Shown here in pieces: positions 27,362-30,078 of a stretch of DNA of 64,000 bases. Numbering within the stretch: the first letter of the stretch is position 1; every line of letters begins with the position of its first letter. Location of the stretch: positions 62,001-126,000 of the forward strand of contig JAKAWJ010000002.1 of assembly GCA_021817005.1 (NCBI GenBank), read 5' to 3'. A program made the position numbers and the translations under genes. Below the pieces are notes generated by a model. It searched no databases, was not told the origin of the DNA, and saw only the letters and a list, made by a program, of their open reading frames with translations. Source of the stretch: an archaeon. GTDB taxonomy: Archaea; Thermoproteota; Thermoprotei_A; Marsarchaeales; Marsarchaeaceae.

Positions 27362-28180
27362 CTAGAGGCCGAGGCCCAACCTCTTACGAAAGAGCTTTTC
27401 CAGTAAGTCAGGTTCGCTCCGGAAAAGTCTAATCGGCACGGGAAAACGTCTGATACTCAGGCTAGAGCTAGGAAAAAGCCCTGACCACTTAACACCATCA
27501 ATCGTAATCGTGAAGGGAAAAGTGTCTACGTTAGTCACCGTTACTACCTTACTTCCATCTATCACTAATGGCCTCATCGCCATATTTATCGCAGCTAGCG
27601 GCGCTAACACCACCACCGAAGCGTCTGGATCAAGTATTGGGCCGCCAGATGAGAGCGAGTACGCCGTAGAGCCAACAGAAGTCGAAATGATTAGGCCATC
27701 CATCCTCCCAGAAAAATCCATCACATGCGGTACCTGCAGTCGAATCGATATCAGACGGCCGGGTGTGGATGGTGTGATAAAAATTTCGTTAGTTGCTGGT
27801 GGACTAGTTGACCGGGGATCCGAACAAATTTCCCCCTGTAACCTCTGAACTAGATAGAACTCCTCTTTCCCTTCTAGGAGCTTATTCAGCGTGCTCCTTA
27901 GAGCCGTTCGCTCGACTTCGGCCAAGAAACCAAGCCGGCCATAATTGACTCCCACAATAAGGGGAGAACTGGTTTGGAACAACTTTGCCGTTTTTAGCAA
28001 TGTTCCATCGCCGCCAAATGTGAAGACTGTATCCACTCCCTGCAGTTCGGATTCGTTTACTTCTGGTAGCTGAAAAACTCCCACGCAGTCAACTCCTTCG
28101 TCCACAAGCAGATTGTAAAAATCTCTGCCTGCGGCGACTGCCTCTGGTATTGGTTTACAAATCACCGTTACCCTTTTCAT
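27362..28180 (-). CDS. nadK: NAD kinase
   Basis: A 272-residue ATP-NAD kinase with TFGGDGTLLKTAK, VNYGRLGFL, NEIFIT and the glycine-rich STSVGSTAYSLSSGGPILDP. It forms NADP from NAD. The ATG at 28180 (MKRVTVICKPIPEAV) is supported by a TATA box 27 nt upstream on the minus strand at 28205-28212. Upstream readings lack family similarity. Confidence 0.95.
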   Translation of the reverse strand: MKRVTVICKPIPEAVAAGRDFYNLLVDEGVDCVGVFQLPEVNESELQGVDTVFTFGGDGTLLKTAKLFQTSSPLIVGVNYGRLGFLAEVERTALRSTLNKLLEGKEEFYLVQRLQGEICSDPRSTSPPATNEIFITPSTPGRLISIRLQVPHVMDFSGRMDGLIISTSVGSTAYSLSSGGPILDPDASVVVLAPLAAINMAMRPLVIDGSKVVTVTNVDTFPFTITIDGVKWSGLFPSSSLSIRRFPVPIRLFRSEPDLLEKLFRKRLGLGL

Positions 28181-28204
28181 TCGTTTAGGAGCTGGTATTT
28201 CGCC

Positions 28205-28212
28205 GTATAAGC
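28205..28212 (-). promoter_or_regulatory. TATA box of nadK
   Basis: GCTTATAC on the minus strand sits 27 nt before the ATG at 28180, consistent with a leaderless transcript. Confidence 0.5.
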
Positions 28213-28281
28213 GTTGACACCCGTTCAAGCTGCTTACAACAAGAATAAATCTCCCGCACACAACGCAGGCCAGAGGCTGAG

Positions 28282-28674
28282 ATGAGCAAACCCGTTGAAG
28301 TTGGCGACTTAAGGGAGGGAGGCTATCTAATGATTGATAATGAGCCATGTAGAATTGTCAGTACCGAGAAAAGCAAGCCTGGTAAACACGGAAGCGCGAA
28401 GGCCCGAATCGTTGCAATTGGAGTCTTCGATGGAGTAAAGAGGAGTATCGTAAACCCCGTCGATACGAGAGTGGACGTCCCAATAATAGAAAAGAAGACG
28501 GGTCAGGTGATTGCAACGCTCGGCCAAAATCAATACCAAATCATGGATCTCGAAACGTTCGAGACGTTTGATTCAGTCGTAGATGAGGGAGAACTAGGCA
28601 GCAGTTTAAAACAGGGCGACGAAGTCGAGTACTGGTTTATTCTAGGCAGGAAAAAGGTTGTAAGGAAGAAGTAA
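28282..28674 (+). CDS. translation factor aIF5A
   Basis: A 130-residue IF5A. The hypusination loop is TEKSKPGKHGSAKARIVAIG with the modified lysine at K35, and the OB-fold C-terminal domain follows. It prevents ribosome stalling at difficult peptide bonds. It is divergent from nadK. SRP54 follows on the same strand after 78 nt. Confidence 0.96.
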   Translation: MSKPVEVGDLREGGYLMIDNEPCRIVSTEKSKPGKHGSAKARIVAIGVFDGVKRSIVNPVDTRVDVPIIEKKTGQVIATLGQNQYQIMDLETFETFDSVVDEGELGSSLKQGDEVEYWFILGRKKVVRKK

Positions 28675-28752
28675 AAACCGATATGTCCCCTGTGACCAGA
28701 CCAGGCTTGCCACGGTAATTGTGGAAGATTATGAGAGGGGAGGGGACAAGCA

Positions 28753-30078
28753 ATTTCATTTCTAGGTAGTCTAGGTGACTCGCTGCGTTCTCTGATTGAA
28801 AAGCTGAGTAGGCAGCCCAGCCTCGACCAACGCCAAATCGGCCAGTTTGTCAACGAGTTAGAACGTGCATTAATCGCGGCTGACGTAAACCTCGAGACTG
28901 TTTCGAGGCTGGGCGCGAATATCAAAAACAAGATGCTCACGGAGGAACCCCCTCCGGGTGTGACCAAGCGCGACTACATGGTTAAATTGATTTACGACGA
29001 GTTGGTTTCGCTTCTCGGCGGTGAACAAAAGCGAACTGTGTGGCCAGATCGCGACAAACCATACGTAGTACTGCTTCTCGGCCTCCAGGGCTCGGGAAAG
29101 ACGACCACGGCAGCAAAAATTGCTAGGTTTTATTTGAAGCGTTCATATAAGGCGGGGCTCATAGCGGCCGACACGTTTAGACCTGGAGCCAAAGAACAAC
29201 TTAAACAGCTTGGTGAGAAACTGGGAGCGCCTGTCTATACGAGTGACGGCAATTCCGTAAGAATTTCGGTTGATGGTGTATCATATCTCAAGCGGCAAGG
29301 ATGCAACCTGATTATTATTGATACGACTGGTCGACATAAAGAGGAGGAGGAGCTCCTGCGTGAGATGGCCGTCATGAATAAAGAAGTGGGACCAGACGCC
29401 GTCTTCCTAGTCCTGGACGGTACTATTGGACAGCTGGCCAAGCCGCAGGCGGAGGCTTTCTCAAAGGTGGCCTCTATCGGATTTATTGTGATAACCAAGC
29501 TGGACGGAACTGCTAAGGGAGGGGGTGCGATTTCCGCCACGGTTGCAACAGGTGCCCCTATAGCCTTTGTCGGTACTGGTGAGGGCATCGATGATCTCGA
29601 AGTCTTTGACCCTCCCTCATTCATAAGCAGACTGCTTGGATTGGGAGATATCAAAGCTCTTGCGGAACGGGTAAAGGATGCCCAGATTAGCGAAAAGAGA
29701 TTCGAGCAAATTATTGGTACGGGTAAGCTTACGCTTGCAGATTTTGAATATTACATCGATTCCATGGACAAGATGGGTTCACTCGCAAAATTCTTCTCCC
29801 TCCTTCCTGGACTAAGCAATGTACCCCCCGAAATGATGAGGAATGCTGAGACGGACATGAGGCGCTGGAAAACCATCCTCAATTCGATGACCAAGTTGGA
29901 GAAGGTCCGACCAGAGTTGCTGGGTGCATCTAGAGTCAAAAGGATAGCCGTGGGCGCCGGAGCGAACACCGACGAAGTAAAGGCTCTGCTAAGAAGATAC
30001 GAAACGATGAAAACCCAAATGAAAATGATGAAACGCAACAGGACTCTTTTGAGAAAGCTTTCTAGCTATAAAGCTTGA
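28753..30078 (+). CDS. srp54: signal recognition particle GTPase SRP54, likely ATT start
   Basis: SRP54 binds signal sequences and SRP RNA. The GTPase motifs are intact: LLGLQGSGKTTTAAK, ADTFRPGAKEQL, DTTGRH and TKLDGTAKGGG. A methionine-rich C-terminal M domain follows (MMRNAETDMRR, MKTQMKMMKR). The first ATG, 28933, would delete the N domain. In frame upstream the reading is LGSLGDSLRSLIEKLS...ELERALIAADVNLETV, a proper N domain, and a TGA closes the frame at 28732-28734. Between stop and ATG there is no ATG, GTG or TTG. ATT at 28753 lies 9 nt after GGAGG (28739-28743), which matches the 16S 3' end, and gives 441 residues, the usual archaeal length. A single-base error in the G-run is the alternative. 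Confidence 0.85.
   Translation: MSFLGSLGDSLRSLIEKLSRQPSLDQRQIGQFVNELERALIAADVNLETVSRLGANIKNKMLTEEPPPGVTKRDYMVKLIYDELVSLLGGEQKRTVWPDRDKPYVVLLLGLQGSGKTTTAAKIARFYLKRSYKAGLIAADTFRPGAKEQLKQLGEKLGAPVYTSDGNSVRISVDGVSYLKRQGCNLIIIDTTGRHKEEEELLREMAVMNKEVGPDAVFLVLDGTIGQLAKPQAEAFSKVASIGFIVITKLDGTAKGGGAISATVATGAPIAFVGTGEGIDDLEVFDPPSFISRLLGLGDIKALAERVKDAQISEKRFEQIIGTGKLTLADFEYYIDSMDKMGSLAKFFSLLPGLSNVPPEMMRNAETDMRRWKTILNSMTKLEKVRPELLGASRVKRIAVGAGANTDEVKALLRRYETMKTQMKMMKRNRTLLRKLSSYKA

Follow-up and report, generated by a model that had tools for sequence, protein, structure and literature searches.

The srp54 gene at this archaeal locus raises the question of where its translation begins. Among the long open reading frames (ORFs) listed in the window (the whole stretch of 64,000 nucleotides that was analysed), srp54 was the only one without ATG, GTG, or TTG in its first 60 codons. 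Read base by base, its frame is closed by TGA at 28732-28734, and the first in-frame ATG, GTG, or TTG is found at 28933. The N domain is encoded upstream of this position, as Pfam SRP54_N matched along its entire length (profile positions 1-75/75), beginning at residue 13 of the stop-to-stop frame, and it would be truncated by a start at 28933; a gene caller restricted to these three codons would shorten the protein to 381 residues, with much of the N domain lost. ATT at 28753-28755 is preceded by GGAGG (28739-28743, + strand) with a spacer of 9 nt, and the frame from this codon to the stop at 30076-30078 comprises 441 codons and contains the SRP54_N, SRP54 GTPase, and SRP_SPB domains (probable CDS: 28753-30078, + strand). 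The 3' end of 16S rRNA in the window is GGATCACCTCCT, in which CCTCC complements GGAGG. A preliminary description of this DNA had given the same TGA, ATT, GGAGG, spacer, codon at 28933, and 441-residue product, together with the loss of the N domain from the shorter frame and the complementarity to 16S rRNA, and all of these were right. It had further proposed a controlled ATT start as in bacterial infC or, alternatively, one extra G in the preceding G-run, without which ATG at 28731 would be the start.

Start codon of srp54 in relatives

Aligned codon 1 was ATT in the window genome (G000), G004, and G005, ACT in the sister genome (G001/L032), TTG in G003, and GTG in G002, in the comparison with close relatives that the preliminary description had suggested; the ATG at 28731 was kept as part of a guide sequence (see below). 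Because G001 and L032 are apparently one assembly, they were counted as one observation. G004 and G005, with 16 differences in ~1790 sites, are close to one observation, and ATT in G000 together with that in G004/G005 represents about two independent cases. The SRP54 protein of G001/L032 was 98% identical to that of the window. Since residues 2-4 (Ser-Phe-Leu) were kept through different codons in three genera and the preceding codons were unconserved as protein, codon 1 (28753) is the best reading of the start, and the alignments make this position likely. The use of AUU as such in the window genome is somewhat favored. ACT in the sister genome may mean that codon identity matters little, that one of the assemblies carries an error at this codon, or that the start works in a way not yet understood.

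These results divided the proposal of a controlled ATT start into two parts. Its position stood, because constraint begins at 28753 and GTG, TTG, or ATT is found there in relatives. Its other part, namely control by the near-cognate codon as such, is improbable: although two genera of the family share ATT at the aligned position, ACT is present in the sister genome and TTG and GTG in others, and the conserved AUU expected for infC-type control was limited to G000, G004, and G005 among G000-G005. The infC loop, furthermore, depends on bacterial IF3.

An error of sequencing or assembly, either an additional G or a wrongly called start codon, would provide another explanation, as all of the genomes are draft metagenome assemblies and ATT differs from ACT by one base. 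The srp54 frame also changes inside the gene in G002 (L084/L007, near residue 100) and G018 (L225, near residue 290), probably by indel errors of these drafts. However, the G-run, ATG, and their spacing recurred in separate genera, the equivalent place being GAGAGGGGAGGGG in G001 and G003, GAGGGGAGAGGGGG in G004/G005, and GAGAGGTGAGGGG in G002, by which the extra G was refuted. ATT was also found in G004 and G005, and the frame from ATG 28731 would encode an unconserved peptide. An error of either type is thus very improbable. The run in the window, GAGGGGAGGGG, recurs in other genera and is accounted for by an RNA, in which it forms the end of the guide, box D, and the stem, as described below.

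Predicted box C/D guide RNA in the eIF5A-srp54 interval

The ~65 nt between srp54 and eIF5A (aIF5A, a translation factor; 28282-28674, + strand; NCBIfam NF003076, 179.7 bits versus a cut-off of 138), which is located immediately upstream, were conserved among relatives, with a C-rich 5' end and a G-rich 3' end. The longest NAD kinase-like ORF (27362-28348, - strand) overlaps eIF5A by 67 bases, and the actual start codon is probably internal to this ORF. Read as RNA, 28684-28748 (+ strand) has GUCCCC/GGGGAC, a UGU bulge, tandem G·A pairs, and CC/GG, which together make up a kink-turn of the type found in box C/D RNAs. The 5' strand (28685-28697) consists of the stem GTCCCC (28685-28690), bulge TGT (28691-28693), box C-like GA (28694-28695), and CC (28696-28697). 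On the 3' side, box D-like GGGA (28738-28741), assigned by alignment with CTGA of G012 and G018, forms the non-bulged strand of the kink-turn, and is followed by GGGGAC of the terminal stem (28742-28747), which pairs with 28685-28690.

GA/GA with a 3-nt bulge and covarying stems was found across 10 genomes, in agreement with the kink-turn of archaeal box C/D RNA, in which boxes C and D form tandem G·A pairs next to a terminal stem. In the kink-turn stem, 92.5% of cells were paired (76.2% when shuffled) with 15 double changes (4.7 when shuffled); none of 500 shuffles reached either value, and the signal was destroyed on sliding the partner by 1-3 columns. In the terminal helix, 95% of cells were paired and both sides had changed at four of six pairs, while the pair after the tandem G·A was C-G, U-A, or A-U depending on the genome. 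The fold energy of the element was unexceptional (z of -0.35), and the thermodynamic fold was not used as evidence.

The consensus boxes C (RUGAUGA) and D (CUGA) were absent in the window copy, which has UGUGACC and GGGA instead; consensus-like boxes were present in G012, G018 (canonical box D, CTGA, in both), and relatives in family f18 (see below). Since pairing is kept despite the non-consensus boxes, the window RNA was classed by structure and descent. D' CTGA and a C'-like box were clear in G002, G006, G014, and G018, and no internal C'/D' motif was recognizable in G000, G001, and G004. A search of the window region with Rfam gave chance matches only, the element matching no family, whereas the sR41 and sR-tMet models matched relatives at the coordinates of the element below gathering scores: for sR-tMet (RF02163), there was no match in the window, and L009 and L024 gave 32.1 and 24.8 bits, respectively, versus a gathering score of 50. 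On the basis of structure, target, and location, 28684-28748 is almost certainly a C/D RNA of the sR-tMet kind. This RNA, which includes the Shine-Dalgarno-like motif, had been overlooked in the preliminary description.

Predicted target of the guide

In C/D RNAs, the fifth nucleotide before box D faces the modified nucleotide. TATGAG, which is conserved ahead of box D, complements the loop bearing the CAU anticodon, and the guide AGATTATGAG (28726-28735, + strand) is antisense to CTCATAATCT of elongator tRNA-Met (10/10 pairs with tRNA-Met in L113), with G28733, the fifth nucleotide before box D, facing C34. In each of eight genomes, including that of the window, 9-11 perfect pairs were formed with its own elongator (pre-)tRNA-Met, with C34 at +5, and guide and target varied together (AATCT, AAGG, and AGGG). 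The guides of G006 and G008 matched ACTCATAAGG and those of G012 and G014 matched ACTCATAGGG; in these four genomes, the match extended into an apparent intron after tRNA-Met position 37. This apparent short intron was observed in elongator pre-tRNA-Met of families f2, f5, and f7 (L169 in G012, L199 in G014, L209 in G008, and L210 in G006), family f1 being without it, and ARAGORN labels the G012 pre-tRNA as tRNA-Ser with an intron. The RNA is therefore predicted to direct 2'-O-methylation of C34 in elongator tRNA-Met.

An rRNA target was dropped once the tRNA-Met match appeared; a scan of rRNA, with some loci in the wrong orientation, had given no conserved site, and the 5' half of the element may have an rRNA target. 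A second guide against the D-arm of tRNA-Met (CCAGGCT/AGCCTGG) was 7-8 bp, near chance, and is not claimed.

The ATG at 28731 complements the CAU anticodon in antisense and is kept in lineages in which srp54 has its own ATG; the apparently missed start codon is thereby explained. It opens a +1-shifted frame of 12 codons (28731-28769, + strand; TAG at 28767), which runs through the stem and across the srp54 start, and a short ATG frame ending near this start was found in all genomes of family f1. Frameshifting or termination-reinitiation from this ATG might be considered on these grounds, but the offset between ATG and the srp54 frame differs in G002, in which the short frame ends at once, and the guide accounts for an ATG that is conserved where srp54 does not need it. 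Frameshifting was rejected, and srp54 expression by either route is very unlikely.

The same consideration applies to GGAGG, which overlaps box D and the terminal stem: since it is constrained by RNA pairing, the match to 16S rRNA alone is no proof of a Shine-Dalgarno sequence. Its position suits one; the distance from GGAGG/GAGG to codon 1 was 9 nt in G000, G001, G003, G004, and G005, and 7 nt in G002. A Shine-Dalgarno function is fairly probable.

Distribution and gene order

A covariance model of the element (matching 28684-28747 in the window) was used to search 229 genomes of the class and an even sample of 398 genomes of the phylum; the counts are minimum values, as weak matches are missed by the stricter filters of searches on this scale. 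In the class, at least 12 of 229 genomes had the element, with one match each, all between eIF5A and srp54, and these included G018, which was absent from model building. The element was located just before srp54 in four genera of family f1, the sister family, and two further families. In several class genomes (L025, L028, L030, and L031), eIF5A adjoins srp54 without the RNA.

In the phylum sample, at least 26 of 398 genomes were matched, including 19 from family f18, which is in another class; the boxes of these 19 are near-canonical. eIF5A was present in the examined stretch in 18 of the 19, directly upstream of the RNA in 17, and srp54 was ~0.7-0.9 kb downstream. The neighborhood of eIF5A and the guide RNA is thus conserved across classes. 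A PP-loop-like ORF with a MNVAALFSGGKD-type start lies between the guide RNA and srp54 in f18 (L226-L248). Weak matches in family f24 (L230, L242, L244, and L245) were near neither eIF5A nor srp54, and may represent either the guide RNA in a different location or chance matches. Since eIF5A is upstream of the RNA in both classes, the location of the RNA behind eIF5A is ancient, and its direct contact with srp54 characterizes the class to which the window belongs.

These gene orders bear on whether the nearness to srp54 has any regulatory meaning. A real guide RNA might simply be cut out, leaving a nearly leaderless mRNA to be translated and a start codon free to drift; the separation of RNA and srp54 in f18, which links the location of the RNA to eIF5A and not to srp54, and the variation in srp54 start codons between genera are both consistent with this. 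On the other hand, the steady spacing between GGAGG/GAGG and codon 1 is expected of a ribosome-binding site, although RNA pairing alone also keeps the motif. We regard this explanation as possible but rather unlikely.

Discussion

We consider it likely that an RNA of the sR-tMet kind is located between eIF5A and srp54 and shares its 3' strand with the ribosome-binding site of srp54. In the proposed order (eIF5A, guide RNA, and srp54), the RNA, about 10 nt from eIF5A, is inferred to be co-transcribed with it. The 3' strand, which comprises box D and the terminal stem (GGGGAGGGG), is the leading candidate for a ribosome-binding site of srp54, GGAGG lying inside box D and the stem and the kink-turn thus overlapping this site; translation would start ~9 nt further on, where ATG has given way to another codon (ATT in the window). 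Assembly of L7Ae, Nop5, and fibrillarin on the kink-turn would hide the ribosome-binding site and lead to excision of the RNA as a guide, whereas an open kink-turn would allow the ribosome to use GGAGG and begin srp54 at ATT, such that the two uses of the transcript would be mutually exclusive. Competition between the guide and srp54, which is patterned on the L7Ae-controlled leaders and the overlapping C/D genes described below, is a tentative proposal. A coupling of the RNA to SRP54 would be sensible because L7Ae also binds SRP RNA in Sulfolobus (PMC5539422). A more specific form of this proposal for family f1, in which the identity of the srp54 start codon hardly matters (ATT and ACT), the start is placed by the guide strand bearing the Shine-Dalgarno sequence, and guide biogenesis competes with SRP54 synthesis for one transcript such that the level of the L7Ae/C/D RNP sets SRP54 output, is speculative and, in our estimate, unlikely.

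The puzzling start codon is replaced by a concrete object, a predicted guide RNA for tRNA-Met between eIF5A and srp54. Its place after eIF5A is kept in two classes of one phylum, and in one family some of its bases probably also serve an essential gene as the ribosome-binding site. If the proposal is true, wobble methylation of tRNA-Met, a translation factor, and protein targeting would be linked on one transcript, and the locus would offer an example from nature of a C/D RNA that is functional and also serves as a leader element. The RNA is of a known kind, and the arrangement was not found described in the literature searched, which was covered in part.

The closest known RNAs are sR-tMet of Haloferax volcanii (RF02163), which acts on elongator pre-tRNA-Met (Joardar et al. 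2011, as listed in a table of PMC4033218), and sR41 (RF01126). They have in common with the present RNA the predicted target (C34 of elongator (pre-)tRNA-Met), size, C/D kink-turn, and guide before box D. In contrast, the boxes in the window are changed with pairing kept (CC/GG beside the G·A pairs), the RNA adjoins a coding start, and both models match relatives but not the window copy. Bacterial infC also has an AUU start behind a Shine-Dalgarno sequence; however, its loop needs IF3, the infC product, no such loop is applicable to archaeal srp54, and the sister gene has ACT. In the archaeal l7ae 5' leader, which is under L7Ae control, a Shine-Dalgarno sequence next to a kink-turn is located 9 nt before a non-ATG (GTG) start (PMC5539422), and folding of the kink-turn with L7Ae hides the ribosome-binding site (PMC6298567); by analogy, folding with L7Ae would hide the srp54 site. 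The kink-turn in the window differs in belonging to a guide RNA and in having srp54 as its gene. The start codon is similarly downstream of box D where a C/D sRNA gene extends into the beginning of an ORF, a situation described by Tripp et al. (2017) and reviewed in PMC7994747; according to that review, such genes are rare (7%) and lower the expression of the gene downstream. The present case differs from those reviewed there in that srp54 is essential, the order is the same across four families, and the start codon is eroded.
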